Below are positions 14,629 to 59,502 of a stretch of 64,000 nucleotides of DNA, in pieces. Each line of letters opens with the position of its first letter. The stretch's first letter is position 1. Source of the stretch: Candidatus Rokuibacteriota bacterium (GTDB lineage: Bacteria; Methylomirabilota; Methylomirabilia; Rokubacteriales; CSP1-6); the NCBI GenBank assembly GCA_003220535.1, contig QHSU01000065.1:1-64000 (forward strand), read 5' to 3'. The translations under genes were made by a program, and so were the position numbers. The notes below the pieces were generated by a model. It made no database searches. It had not been told where the DNA came from and saw only the letters and a program-made list of their open reading frames with translations.

Positions 14629-15177
14629 ATGGCGATCCTGAAGGTCGCGCGCCTGGGTCATCCCGTGCTTCGGCAGGTGGCCGAGCCGGTCGATCCCGCC
14701 GCGATCCGATCACCCGCGGTCCAGCGGCTCATCGACGACATGATCGAGACGATGCGCGAATACGACGGCGCCGGCCTGGCGGCGACCCAGGTGCACACCC
14801 TCAAGCAGATCGCCGTCATCGAGGTGCTCGCCAATCCGCGCTACCCTGACGCGCCGGCCGTGCCCCTGATGGTGCTCATCAATCCCGTCGTCACGCCGCT
14901 CACGGACGAGATGGAGGAGGGGTGGGAGGGCTGTCTCTCGGTCCCCGACATGCGCGGCATGGTGCCCCGCCACACGGCGGTGCGTCTGCAGTGTCTCGAC
15001 CGGGAAGGCCAGGTCGTCGATCTGGTCGCCAAGGATTTCTTCGCACGGGTGAGCCAGCACGAGACCGACCATCTCAACGGCATCGTCTATCTCGACCGGA
15101 TGCGCAATCTCTCCACGCTCTCCCACGTCGCCGAGTGGAACAAGCACTGGCTCGGCAACCGTGAACAGGCTGACTGA
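14629..15177 (+). CDS. def: peptide deformylase
   Basis: GAGLAATQV, EGCLSVPD, QHETDHLNG motifs. Confidence 0.95.
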   Translation: MAILKVARLGHPVLRQVAEPVDPAAIRSPAVQRLIDDMIETMREYDGAGLAATQVHTLKQIAVIEVLANPRYPDAPAVPLMVLINPVVTPLTDEMEEGWEGCLSVPDMRGMVPRHTAVRLQCLDREGQVVDLVAKDFFARVSQHETDHLNGIVYLDRMRNLSTLSHVAEWNKHWLGNREQAD

Positions 15178-15619
15178 GGACGGCGAGCACGGGGGCGTCG
15201 GGGCCGGGCGGGGGCATTCCCCCCGCGCTCAGAAAACCCCACTTCGCGCGGAGGGAACGCCCCCGCCCGGCCCCGACGCCCCCGTGCTCGCGGTCGTCAG
15301 CGACCTGTTTTTTGTCGCTCGTATCAGGGAGACGGGCCGGCTCGCCGGCGTGCCGGTCGAGTTCGCGAGGACGCCCGAGCAAGTCCAGGCATCACTCGAC
15401 CGGCGCCCACGGCTCGTCGTGCTCGACCTCACGGCCGGGTACGACTACGAGCGGCTGTTCGCGGTGCTCGACGGCGCGCGGCTGCCCGTGCTCGGCTTCA
15501 CCACGCACGCGCTGGCGCGGCAGACGCAGCCCTGGCATTCGCGGTGCGACCGCGTCGTGACCAAGGAGACGCTCACCCAGGAGCTTCCGCGCCTCCTGAA
15601 GGAAGGAGTTACCGCATGA
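15161..15619 (+). CDS. CheY-like/receiver-like hypothetical protein; true start uncertain (GTG 15161 or GTG 15284)
   Basis: VLAVVSDLFFVARIRETGRLAGVPVEFARTPEQVQASLDRRPRLVVLDLTA...; N-terminal about 40 codons correspond to hairpin IR-A. Confidence 0.6.
   Translation: MNRLTEDGEHGGVGAGRGHSPRAQKTPLRAEGTPPPGPDAPVLAVVSDLFFVARIRETGRLAGVPVEFARTPEQVQASLDRRPRLVVLDLTAGYDYERLFAVLDGARLPVLGFTTHALARQTQPWHSRCDRVVTKETLTQELPRLLKEGVTA
15174..15300. repeat. long inverted repeat IR-A
   Basis: 15174-15228 pairs with 15246-15300, no bulges (position sum 30474), 55 bp with 4 mismatches, 17-nt loop; core 33 bp perfect: gcgagcacgggggcgtcggggccgggcgggggc. Confidence 0.95.
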
Positions 15620-17126: not shown

Positions 17127-18431
17127 ATGATCGTGCAGGGCGCGTGGCGCGTCGCCTACCGCTCGGTCGCGTGGCTGGTCATCGTCGCCTTCCTGACCGT
17201 TTCCTGCGCCTCGCGCAGCGTGTCCCCGATCGGCGCCGGCGGCCAGCCCTTCAAGCCCGAAGCCGACGAGCTCCGACTCTGGGCCCAGGCCGAGAAGGAA
17301 GAAGAGCAGCTCCAGAAAAAGGCCAAGCCCTACGACGATCCGCTCCTCGAGGAATACCTCGCCAAGATCGGCGACAAGCTTACGTCGGACGAGGTGCGCG
17401 CGGCCGGAGGCCCGGGGTTCCGGTTCGGCGTCATGCGCGACCCGACGCTGAACGCGTTCGCGATGCCCAACGGACGGATCTACATCCACACCGGACTGCT
17501 GTCGCGCCTCGACAACGAAGCGCAGCTGGCGATGATCGTCGGCCACGAGATGACCCACGTCACCAACCGCCACGCGCTCAGCTTCACGCGCGACGCCCAG
17601 AACAAGCAGATCCTCTTCACCGTGCTGGCCATCGCCGCCTCCATCGGCGTCGCGGTCGCCGCAGGCTCGCGCGCGGGATCGGGCGACTACATCGGCGGCG
17701 CGGTCCTGAGCCAGACCGCGAACGTGGTCCTCGGCCTGGGGCTCCAGCTCGCCGCCATCGCGGCGATCAACGGCTACGGGCGCGACCTCGAGCGCGAGGC
17801 GGACGCGGGCGGGATGGAGAACCTGGTCCGTGCCGGCTACGACCCGAAGGAGGCGCCCAAGGTGTTCGACCTCCTGCGCAAAGAGTCGAAGGACCGCGGC
17901 AGCCTCGAGACCTTCTTCTTCGGCAATCACCCGCGGCTCACCGAGCGGGTCGAGACCACCACCGAGCTCGTCAACAGCAAGTACGCGACGGCGGCGGCCG
18001 CGTCGGATAGCGTGCGGAACACCGAGGACTTGGGTCTGCGGGTGCGCACCGTCGTGCGTGAGAACGCCCGCCTCGACATCCAGGCCGGCCGATTCAAGCT
18101 CGCGCAGGAGCAACTCGACCGCGTGCTCGCGATCACCCCGAAGGACCCGGTGGCGCAGCTCTACTACGGCGACCTCTACCGCCTGCAGTCGCAGCGGGCA
18201 CGTGACGCCGGGGACAAGGCCGACAAGGCCAGGAAGGCCCTCGAACGCTACGAGCGCTCGGCGGAGCTCGACCCGGCCTTCCCCGATCCGTTCCGCCAGC
18301 TCGGGTTCCTCTACTACCAGCAGAAGGAGACCGAGCGGGCGAAGGCGGCGTTCCAGAAGTACCTGGCGCTCAAGCCGGAGGCGCCCGACGCTCCGCGCAT
18401 CAAGGAATATCTCGTCGAGTTCGATCGGTAG
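17127..18431 (+). CDS. M48 family metalloprotease with TPR repeats (BepA-like lipoprotein)
   Basis: MIVGHEMTHVTNRHA (HExxH), lipoprotein-like N-terminus, C-terminal TPR. Confidence 0.9.
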   Translation: MIVQGAWRVAYRSVAWLVIVAFLTVSCASRSVSPIGAGGQPFKPEADELRLWAQAEKEEEQLQKKAKPYDDPLLEEYLAKIGDKLTSDEVRAAGGPGFRFGVMRDPTLNAFAMPNGRIYIHTGLLSRLDNEAQLAMIVGHEMTHVTNRHALSFTRDAQNKQILFTVLAIAASIGVAVAAGSRAGSGDYIGGAVLSQTANVVLGLGLQLAAIAAINGYGRDLEREADAGGMENLVRAGYDPKEAPKVFDLLRKESKDRGSLETFFFGNHPRLTERVETTTELVNSKYATAAAASDSVRNTEDLGLRVRTVVRENARLDIQAGRFKLAQEQLDRVLAITPKDPVAQLYYGDLYRLQSQRARDAGDKADKARKALERYERSAELDPAFPDPFRQLGFLYYQQKETERAKAAFQKYLALKPEAPDAPRIKEYLVEFDR

Positions 18432-18586
18432 GCATCGGCGGGCCGGGGGCCGGCTGCTGCGGTCCTGGCCGAGACCCGACTGCAGTCACTCCGGCTCCTT
18501 GGTGTCATGCGCTTCTTGTCTAGTCAGTCCTGACTACACGGGTCTCGGGCAGGACCGCAGCAGCCGGCCCCCGGCCCGCCGACGCC
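18431..18586. repeat. long inverted repeat IR-B between convergent genes
   Basis: 18431-18477 pairs with 18540-18586 (47 bp, 2 mismatches); 62-nt loop containing smaller palindromes gactgcagtc and tagtcagtcctgacta. Confidence 0.95.
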
Positions 18587-18656: not shown

Positions 18657-20123
18657 TCAGCGTCGGAGGTGGGATTTGAGGACTTTGCCGGTTGGGCTGC
18701 GCGGGAGGGCGTCGAGCACCGTGAGCTGTCGGGGGTACTTGAACGCAGCCAGGCGATCCCGGCAGTGGGTGACCAGCTCGTCGGGTGTGGCCGTCAGCCC
18801 AGGGCGCAGCGTCACGAAGGCGGCCACGTCTTCACCCAGCTCGGGGTGAGGCATGCCGACGACGGCAGCTTCGGCGACCGCGGGGTGCGCGAGGAGCACC
18901 GCTTCCACCTCAGGCGGGAACACCGAGTACCCGCCGCGGAGGATCCGCTCGCGCTTGCGGCCGACGATGGTGACGAGACCGTCGGCGTTCACCGTGGCGA
19001 GGTCGCCGGTGCTGAACCATCCGTCCACGAGAACCTCGCGCGTCTCCTCCGGAGCATTCACGTAGCTCTCCATCGCGGAAGGGCTCTTGATCAGGAGCTC
19101 GCCCACCGCGCCGTTCGGCAAATGGCGGCCGGTGTCGTCGACGATCCGGATCTCGACGCCCGGCACGGGTCGGCCGATCGCGTCTGGCGATTCGATCGGG
19201 TCCATCGCCTGATACGAGATCGGGCGGAAGAGCTCCGTCATCCCGTAGCCGCGGACGATCCTGATGCCGGTGCGCGCACGCCACTCCTGCGCCAGATCCC
19301 ACGGACACGGCGCCGCGCCCGAGACCCCGATGCGCACCGACGAGAGGTCTGCGGCGGCGAGGTCGGCGTCCAGGAGCCGGCGGAACATCGTCGCGACGCC
19401 TGGAAAGACCGTGACGCGATGGCGGCGGATTGCCTCGACGACCGTCTCGGGCGCGAAACGTTCCACCAGAGCCACGGTACCGCCGACGAGCAACGGAGCG
19501 AGGAGGGCGCCGTTCAGGCCGAACGAGTGGGCGAGCGGAAGCGTCGCCAGCACGACATCGGCGTGCGTCAGCGCCATCACCGGACCTGCCCACGACTCGA
19601 TCGCAAGCTCGAGCGCCGCATGTGACAGCACTGCGCCCTTCGGCCGCCCGGTGCTGCCAGACGTATACAGAATCAACCCAGCGTGAACGGGCTCGGGCGT
19701 GGCGGCGCGGGGGGACCCGGACGGCGGAGTGGGACCCCTTCGTGGGTGACGGAGCCGTCCGGGTCCCCCCGCGCCGCCACGCCCGAGCCCGCCTACGATG
19801 GCTGCATCGATGAGAAGTGTTGGTCTGAGGTCGGCGAGGATTTCGGCTCGCTCGTCGGCTTTCAAGAGTGGGTCGAGCGGAGCGACGGTGGCGCCGAGTT
19901 TCCAGCCGGCGAGCAACGCCACCGCGAACGCCCAGTGGTTTCCGATCGCGAGCGCGATGCGGTCCCCAGGCTGGACGCCCTTCGCCTCGAGGATCGCGGC
20001 GAAGGCGTCCGCCCGACGGTCCAGCTCGTCGAACGTGACCGCGCCGCCCTCCCAGACGAGGGCGGGCTTGTCCGGGGTGCGACGCGCGCTGGCCTCGAGG
20101 CGGCGAACGAAGCTCTCCGCCAC
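18657..20123 (-). CDS. class I adenylate-forming enzyme (acyl/aryl-CoA ligase) carrying an in-frame palindromic insert
   Basis: LILYTSGSTGRPKGAVLSH, GYGMTE, GWFSTGDLATVNADG, SPTGKVLKSHLRR; insert GLGRGGAGGPGRLRHPRRGPTPPSGSPRAATPEPVHA. Confidence 0.88.
   Translation of the reverse strand: MAESFVRRLEASARRTPDKPALVWEGGAVTFDELDRRADAFAAILEAKGVQPGDRIALAIGNHWAFAVALLAGWKLGATVAPLDPLLKADERAEILADLRPTLLIDAAIVGGLGRGGAGGPGRLRHPRRGPTPPSGSPRAATPEPVHAGLILYTSGSTGRPKGAVLSHAALELAIESWAGPVMALTHADVVLATLPLAHSFGLNGALLAPLLVGGTVALVERFAPETVVEAIRRHRVTVFPGVATMFRRLLDADLAAADLSSVRIGVSGAAPCPWDLAQEWRARTGIRIVRGYGMTELFRPISYQAMDPIESPDAIGRPVPGVEIRIVDDTGRHLPNGAVGELLIKSPSAMESYVNAPEETREVLVDGWFSTGDLATVNADGLVTIVGRKRERILRGGYSVFPPEVEAVLLAHPAVAEAAVVGMPHPELGEDVAAFVTLRPGLTATPDELVTHCRDRLAAFKYPRQLTVLDALPRSPTGKVLKSHLRR
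19688..19791. repeat. long inverted repeat IR-C inside coding sequence
   Basis: 19688-19725 pairs with 19754-19791, 38 bp perfect (cgggctcgggcgtggcggcgcggggggacccggacggc), 28-nt loop. Confidence 0.97.
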
Positions 20124-20131
20124 GGAGCCGG

Positions 20132-21487
20132 TCAGGCGAAGAAGTCTTTGAGGTTGATCCGCTGCCAGACGTCGGCCGGCACGCGGTGTCGGGGCGTGTA
20201 GGCCGCGAGCGAGGGCTTGGCCGTCGCGTCCACGCCCCACTTCGCGCTCATACCGTCCTCGCGGGCCGAGGGATCGAGGTCGGAGCCGCGCGCGTTCGTA
20301 ATGATCGTGATGTCACGGTCGGGTTGGCAGCGCGTCGCGATCGCCCAGTTCACCTGCCGGTCGTCGAAGACGTCCACGTCGTCGTCCACGACGACGATGC
20401 GCTTCATGTAGAGATCGGCGCCGAGCGCCGCCAGAATCGCGTTCTTGGCCTGGCCCGGGATGCGCTGCTCGATGGAGATGAAGCAGGTGAAGGGGCCCGG
20501 CACGCGCACCGCCTTGACCGACGGGACCATCGCCCGCACGGCACGGAAAAGGTTCGCCTCCATCGGGATCGTGGACAGGAGCATGTGGTCGAGGTGGGCG
20601 ACGGTGATGTCCTGGAAGATCGCGTCCCGCCGATGCGTGATCGCGTTGACGCGGACGATCTCGCGCTGGCGCTCGCCGAGGCTATAGCCCGTGAACTCGC
20701 CGAAGGGCCCCTCGGGGGTGCGCTGTCCCGGCAGGATCTCGCACTCGAGCACGATCTCGGCGTGGGCTGGCACGAGCACGTCGGAGGTCTGACACTTCAC
20801 GAGCTCGAGCGGCTCGCCCAGCAGCCCGCCCATGATCCCGCGCTCGTCCTCGTCGATGGATCCGATGGCGAGCGCGCCGAGGGCGATCGCCGGGTGCACA
20901 CCGATCACCAGCGCCAGGGGCAGGGACTCGTTCCGCGCCTCGGCGATCCGCTGGAACTCCCACAGGTGCTTGCCGGTCGTCAGGTGGATCGACGTCGTGT
21001 CGCGGCCCTTGATCTGGAGCCGATTGTAGGCGCAGTTCCAGATCTCCCGCGTTGGGTCTTTCGCGAAGGAGATCGCCGCCGTGACGTATGCGCCGGCGTC
21101 GCCCTCGTGGTGGACGATCTGGGGCAGGTCGTAGAGGTTGATCCGGTCACCCTTGAGGACAACTTCCTGCACGGGTCCGGCGGCCACGACCTTGGGCGGG
21201 AGAGGCTTCTCCATCGCCCGGAGGTAGGTCGCCTGCGTCGCCTCAGGCGCTGCGTTCATGGCGGCGGCGAGCCGCGGCCGGCTGGCGTGGAGATTGGTGA
21301 GGACCGGGAACCTGGTGCCCTTGACGTTCTCGAACAGCAGAACGGGCCGGCGCTTAGCCTCGCGCTCGAGCTTGACGACGAGCGCGGTGATCTCGTACCG
21401 CGGATCGACGGACCCCGCGACGATCTCGAACTCGCCCGCCTTCCGCCGCTTGATGAGATCGAGATAGCTCCGGAGGTCTTGCGCCAT
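20132..21487 (-). CDS. UbiD family decarboxylase
   Basis: MAQDLRSYLDLIKRRKAGEFEIVAGSVDPRYEITALVVKL...GPFGEFTGYSLGERQ...DDDVDVFDDRQVNWAIATR. Confidence 0.9.
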   Translation of the reverse strand: MAQDLRSYLDLIKRRKAGEFEIVAGSVDPRYEITALVVKLEREAKRRPVLLFENVKGTRFPVLTNLHASRPRLAAAMNAAPEATQATYLRAMEKPLPPKVVAAGPVQEVVLKGDRINLYDLPQIVHHEGDAGAYVTAAISFAKDPTREIWNCAYNRLQIKGRDTTSIHLTTGKHLWEFQRIAEARNESLPLALVIGVHPAIALGALAIGSIDEDERGIMGGLLGEPLELVKCQTSDVLVPAHAEIVLECEILPGQRTPEGPFGEFTGYSLGERQREIVRVNAITHRRDAIFQDITVAHLDHMLLSTIPMEANLFRAVRAMVPSVKAVRVPGPFTCFISIEQRIPGQAKNAILAALGADLYMKRIVVVDDDVDVFDDRQVNWAIATRCQPDRDITIITNARGSDLDPSAREDGMSAKWGVDATAKPSLAAYTPRHRVPADVWQRINLKDFFA

Positions 21488-55607: not shown

Positions 55608-55616
55608 CCGCCTTGG

Positions 55617-55704
55617 CGTCGTGGGGGGAGGATTCCTGAGAACCGGGTGCGGCCCGGGACCCCTCGAACCTGCACTGGGTAATTCCAGCGAAGGGAACAC
55701 GACG
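55617..55704 (+). ncRNA. TPP riboswitch (THI element)
   Basis: GGGGGGAGGATTCCTGAGAA...GACCCCTCGAACCTGCACTGGGTAATTCCAGCGAAGGGAACAC; P1 cgtcgtg/cacgacg. Confidence 0.95.
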
Positions 55705-55716
55705 ACGAGAATCGAG

Positions 55717-59342: not shown

Positions 59343-59502
59343 CGGAGAAGGCGGGGCGGGGTGCGGCAGGGGTCGAAAGGACCCGTTCCCGGCAACCGGC
59401 GGCGGGCACCGCGCGTCCGGATGGAGCCCAGCCGCCGCGGGGCAGCGAACGCGTGCAGCGTGGTCCGTCGACCCCTGCCGCACCCCCGCCCCGTCTTCTC
59501 CG
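59343..59502. repeat. long imperfect inverted repeat IR-D between convergent genes
   Basis: 59343-59376 pairs with 59468-59502 (1 bulge, 1 mismatch); further inner pairings ggacc/ggtcc, cgttc/gaacg, cggcggc/gccgccg, gggc/gccc. Confidence 0.88.

Follow-up and report, generated by a model that had tools for sequence, protein, structure and literature searches.

Introduction

The closest described counterparts of the sequence studied here are the Rickettsia palindromic elements (RPE). As summarized in PMC10969869 (see Ogata et al. 2000, 2002), these are dispersed palindromic repeats of about 100–165 bp that lie in frame within unrelated genes, leave the reading frame intact and form several families per genome. 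Perfect inverted repeats within protein-coding genes are also known from the mitochondria of Nematomorpha, where the arms evolve in concert and template switching is one proposed mechanism; their arms code for conserved parts of the proteins and are not presented there as a dispersed insertion family (PMC6649704). Template switching at quasipalindromes makes imperfect inverted repeats perfect and homogenizes their arms (PMC7202029, PMC8794818, PMC8604942).

Here we describe a hairpin, IR-C, that lies in frame within a CoA-ligase gene of a soil bacterium, together with the dispersed repeats to which it belongs (family A). Family A resembles RPE in that a dispersed palindromic family occurs in frame in unrelated genes and the ORF is kept open. 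We say that it works like RPE, a likeness of behavior, and do not claim it as an RPE. The differences lie in the arms, which are unrelated between copies and homogenized within a copy, only the apex being conserved; in the apex, which is read in different frames with no conserved peptide; and in the host, a high-GC soil lineage in which some copies bear IS1380-type ends. What is added with respect to RPE is concerted evolution of copy-specific, self-homogenizing arms and a possible replacement of the apex. The palindromes of Nematomorpha share the perfect inverted repeats and the concerted arms, whereas here the arms lie in disposable linkers around a conserved, dispersed apex. With prokaryotic MITEs, family A has in common its short length, the presence of both intergenic and intragenic copies and, in copies with intact ends, terminal inverted repeats that match an IS1380 element of the genus. 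In contrast to MITEs, its interior forms a long, perfect palindrome whose arms are specific to each copy, and its gene-borne copies are without terminal repeats. REP/RAYT palindromes span 20–40 bp and have a fixed GTAG/CGTC tag, whereas the arms of family A measure 38–100 bp and the start of the apex is variable (GGAG, GTAG, GCAG, GAAG). Quasipalindrome correction likewise homogenizes arms and is known as a mutation process, but here it seems to have operated time and again on repeat families in different species. We found no report of such elements for Rokubacteria in the open-access literature. With the present family, the range of coding palindromic elements reaches beyond Rickettsia, into a soil phylum of high GC content.

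Results

A perfect hairpin in frame within a CoA-ligase gene

The window, that is, the whole stretch of DNA analyzed, covers 64 kb of contig C90 in the 7.18-Mb genome (G000) of a Candidatus Rokuibacteriota MAG. A perfect 38-bp hairpin had been predicted at 19688-19791, and both its coordinates and its arms were borne out. The two perfectly complementary arms enclose a 28-nt loop (Table 1), and with the imperfect outer extensions they reach 48 nt, 92% paired. Folded as single-stranded DNA, IR-C has a z of -11.5, and none of 200 shuffles folded as well. Three hairpins with perfect arms of at least 20 bp occur in the window, all inside 4.6 kb, compared to two in the 386-kb contig C1 of the same genome. 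Order-3 Markov copies of that contig held 0, 0, 0, 0 and 1.

The host gene is a minus-strand ORF that remains open through the hairpin, in keeping with the original prediction of a preserved frame, and carries an AMP-binding domain (at 2.9e-89) and an AMP-binding_C domain. A UbiD-type gene adjoins it, and the relatives of its protein come mostly from MAGs labelled Candidatus Rokuibacteriota. As had been claimed, both strands of the arms encode GLGRGGAGGPGR and SGSPRAATPEP; a perfect palindrome in that phase gives the same arm peptides automatically.

Table 1. Positions of the hairpins and related features (window coordinates unless a contig is named).
Feature	Position	Strand	Description
Hairpin I1	15174-15300		55-nt arms, 93% paired
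Hairpin I2	18431-18586		48-nt arms, 60-nt apex; between convergent M48 peptidase and CoA-ligase genes
Host gene, AMP-dependent (adenylate-forming) CoA ligase	18657-20240	-	PF00501, PF13193; ortholog homology begins near 20126
Imperfect outer palindrome extension	19678-19687	+	partner of 19792-19801, probably coding sequence of the host
IR-C left arm	19688-19725	+	38 bp, perfect
IR-C loop, GGAGTGGGACCCCTTCGTGGGTGACGGA	19726-19753	+	family-A apex (65 nt) reduced to its two ends, inner 37 nt deleted
IR-C right arm	19754-19791	+	38 bp, perfect
Imperfect outer extension, other side	19792-19801	+	codes IVG, conserved in orthologs
Hairpin I8	59353-59491		member of the second dispersed hairpin family (family B)
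LigD hairpin in G000	C98:96653-96715		L081/L253

The hairpin lies in the linker between the motifs DLxPx and LILYTSG. This linker has 47 residues here, 27–37 in seven congeners and 29–46 in the other genera of the family. By this comparison the net gain is 10–20 residues relative to the congeners, at a place that tolerates change, and the hairpin has come to fill the greater part of a linker that varies in any case. The predicted size of the addition needs correcting, as the net gain is not 37 residues. Its sequence is present in no ortholog, and the congener linkers are shorter, so an equivalent linker is not common to all orthologs. Linkers of similar length do occur in other genera and in the solved relative 8wev, which aligns over the linker almost gap-free. 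Inverted repeats found in the linkers of the orthologs were of 6–10 nt only. The linker is too variable for exact borders of the insert to be set.

The dN/dS of the CoA-ligase gene against seven congeners is 0.15–0.21, a constraint like that on the orthologs, which indicates that the gene remains under purifying selection. Residues 116–146 are the sole long stretch with pLDDT <50 in the AlphaFold2 model and have no secondary structure there, a low value that is also expected where the alignment has no homologous residues. In the model, this stretch is a flexible surface loop. The insert is predicted to be neutral for the enzyme, as a disordered surface loop that would do nothing for it.

Relation of IR-C to a dispersed hairpin family

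As a query against its own genome, IR-C gave paired matches flanking a piece of about 36 nt that is absent from IR-C itself. Full copies of family A carry a conserved 65-nt apex, GGAGTGGGACCCCCTCGTCCCGTCCGCAGCTCGAAGAGCTGCGATTCGGGCGAGTGGGTGACGGA, which itself forms a small stem-loop. The apex consensus is GGAGTGGGACCCC[C/T]TCG...GAGTGGGTGACGGA, with TTCG variants at four loci (L072, L076, L107 and L113). The loop of IR-C equals this apex minus one clean 37-nt block, so that GGAGTGGGACCCCTTCG is followed directly by TGGGTGACGGA. Judged by its sequence, IR-C is a shortened copy of this dispersed, hairpin-forming repeat; loss of the 37-nt inner stem-loop in one step would account for the 28-nt loop. 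The description of IR-C as a coding palindromic element in frame is supported, in that the ends of its loop match a dispersed family and other in-frame gene copies exist. The original prediction missed the family membership, the status as a deletion derivative, the concerted arms, the IS1380-type ends of some copies and the hypervariability of the linker in the absence of any insertion.

Copy numbers rest on searches that scored limited numbers of candidates, and the counts are therefore lower bounds. The apex has at least 27 matches in this genome and about 40 more across seven relatives (at least 21 in G006, at least 10 in G003, at least four in G007, at least two each in G002 and G004, and at least one each in G001 and G010). 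Among the matches listed, it was not found in the remaining genomes searched, other orders and classes included, and 40 nt of the apex had no exact match in viral contigs. We extracted 62 family-A copies, of which 52 have alignable arms of at least 25 bp. At one locus of this genome (L225; C147:116545 and 116822), two family-A hairpins adjoin in opposite orientation beside an alanine-racemase-like gene, and a similar side-by-side pair occurs in G006 (L100, C47).

Could the linker have grown without any insertion, through local template switching that copied a neighboring stretch as an inverted repeat? The creation of a hairpin in one step by template switching is possible (PMC8794818), the linker is hypervariable in all relatives, and the outer 10 nt of the palindrome pair partly. 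A local event, however, would not yield the apex ends of family A, and the loop of IR-C holds both of them, together with family-like inner arm sequence. This counts against local template switching, which we consider very improbable as the origin of IR-C. We regard it as likely, instead, that a shortened family-A copy landed in, or moved into, a flexible and variable linker of the CoA ligase, which would tolerate an in-frame, stop-free insert.

In-frame copies and the DNA ligase D site

At least four other family-A copies lie in frame within genes of G000. Their hosts are DNA ligase D (LigD), a radical-SAM protein, an indolepyruvate-oxidoreductase-like protein and a membrane protein, names that were taken from reading the translations and not from a family search. 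In the radical-SAM and oxidoreductase linkers, the element is present in G000 only, and the linkers of the orthologs there are shorter and variable. The apex is antisense to the gene in all five gene-borne copies (IR-C included), an orientation in which the consensus apex has no stop in any of its three frames. With five cases, the antisense preference of gene-borne apices is no more than suggestive. Annotators should bear in mind that repeat DNA can be the source of linker stretches in such proteins.

The LigD hairpin, which lies in the interdomain linker, is found in eight congeners; its start point 3' of the ligase domain agrees to within one base among them. In these eight species, the linker spans 276–351 nt; its length is divisible by three in each, and no stop codon interrupts it. 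In a ninth congener, G008, the copy is broken, and a plain LigD linker of 75–81 nt is present in two relatives that belong to other families of the order. The apex is of type A in four of the eight species and of the unrelated type B in the other four. Among the LigD copies compared, we found no element peptide conserved in a single frame: the apex reads GSVTHSPES.. in G000 and AASPTRP/AASPARP.. in G003, G006 and G007, so the frames differ.

The switch between A core and B core is unexplained by template switching inside one hairpin. Replacement of the apex in one ancestral hairpin would explain it, as would the arrival of two families at the same spot. A tentative and somewhat doubtful proposal is that the apex is an exchangeable module, whereby one ancestral LigD hairpin would carry apex A or B depending on the species and its arms would be continually rewritten. 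If this were true, the hairpins themselves would be targets of mobile apex modules, or would recombine via their arms. With its eight species, LigD is a site for the direct testing of both template-switch homogenization and apex replacement.

Concerted evolution of the arms

The distal arms are unrelated between family-A copies, and within a copy they are mostly 90–100% complementary. At orthologous family-A sites, recognized by flanks that are mostly 80–88% identical, the two arms of a copy are much alike, but the arms of different species diverge widely. In LigD, the arms are 96% identical within species and 66% between species, compared to 59% in the shuffled control, and each of the 16 arms is nearest to its own partner (16 of 16). 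The drift between species is fast, while that between arms is almost nil. One asymmetry between the arms, GGG--TGGC versus GGGGCCTGTC or GGGTCCTGTC, is fixed between the 5' and 3' arms in G002, G003 and G004. In G006, both arms hold the same version of this otherwise kept asymmetry, and one arm was therefore copied onto the other.

The orthologous sites also bear on whether IR-C could be an artefact of assembly, a chimeric inverted join within the metagenome bin. A single MAG is the only source of IR-C, and the genome is estimated to be 8% contaminated. Yet the same family is present at orthologous sites of separate genomes with matching flanks, the reading frame of IR-C is kept, and its loop holds the family apex. 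We judge an artefact to be improbable in the extreme.

Two other sources of the matched arms were considered. Copying of host target sequence is unlikely as the only source of the arms: the 5' arms are 52% G and 8% T, and the flanks are balanced in composition. The second is selection for pairing, with the hairpins serving a function as RNA or in transcription (as terminators, attenuators or sRNAs). Several family-A copies are located directly after stop codons, the placement of I2 (Table 1) would suit such a role, and the folds are very stable. Selection on RNA should, however, favor G.U on one strand, whereas the arm mismatches comprise 57 G.T and 51 A.C (p = 0.63), an equality that makes selection on one-strand RNA pairing unlikely. 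Several copies lie mid-gene. The Rfam 15 scan, which covered the window and two full copies, returned nothing related to the hairpins above the gathering scores, only miRNA models far under the cut-off. An RNA function is, on this evidence, an unlikely reason for the pairing.

Template switching from arm to arm in an extruded hairpin appears to be the best fit and the simplest process. Replication or repair would switch template between the arms of the extruded hairpin, as in quasipalindrome correction. Any mutation in one arm would be lost or else carried over into its partner, and the arms would stay perfect. The family is a natural, replicated record of the upkeep of long, perfect hairpins in bacterial chromosomes, conserved reading frames included.

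IS1380-type ends and the spread of family A

Element ends of IS1380 type are seen at four loci (L137, L138, L146 and L150). The copy at L138 (the same as L091) has intact ends, with the inverted repeats GGGATTGTTCATGAAC and GGATTGTTCATGAAC at its two extremities. In G003, a gene for an IS1380-family transposase (NF033539, E = 2.5e-68) is bounded by CTAGCCCGGATTATGCGTGAA and CTAGCCCGGACTATTCGTGAAC, and the end CTAGCCCGGACTATTCGTGAAC is also present in copies in G001 and G015. Some intact family-A copies have CTAG next to their ends, as does the IS1380 element. Since the intact copies share CTAG-GCCCGGATTATTCATGAAC-like inverted repeats with the IS1380 element of the genus, we infer that family A most likely spread as an IS1380-driven, non-autonomous MITE. 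Most family-A copies look old.

IR-C has no IS1380-type ends and no recognizable target duplication at its locus, and the other gene-borne copies are likewise without such ends. It is for this reason that we infer, rather than observe, their arrival by transposition. Family A would have been moved by an IS1380-type transposase, and the gene-borne copies would have lost their ends.

Similarly built elements are present in G024, a genome from another family of the order. These (L137, L146, L150, L133 and L144) are compact IS1380-like MITEs of 150–200 bp, several of them bordered by CTAG/TAG; the CTAG/TAG borders of the G024 MITEs may coincide with the stop codons of genes.

Other hairpins of the window

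G002 has a counterpart of hairpin I2 at the corresponding position (L177). The two have homologous 60-nt apices, both starting with TGTAGTCAGGACTGA, and wholly different arms, whose pairing is perfect in G002 and 96% in this genome. No dispersed relatives of I2 were found, and its membership in family A or B was rejected; it represents a third apex type, shared with G002. At least three apex types in the genus behave alike, with a conserved apex and changing, matched arms.

For family B, a joint query gave 50 matches in this genome, a count that takes in all three hairpins of the query, and 33–40 in each of five congeners, in both cases among the matches listed. Family B (I8; L254, L256, L260 and L262) is the more abundant family, is genus-wide and is also found in frame in LigD. 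Hairpin I1 was ruled out as a member of either family, as no dispersed relatives were found in nine genomes; it is located directly after the stop of an apparent peptide-deformylase gene. A tRNA search of the window returned none. The Rfam scan placed a TPP riboswitch at window positions 55614-55714 on the plus strand, over the gathering score.
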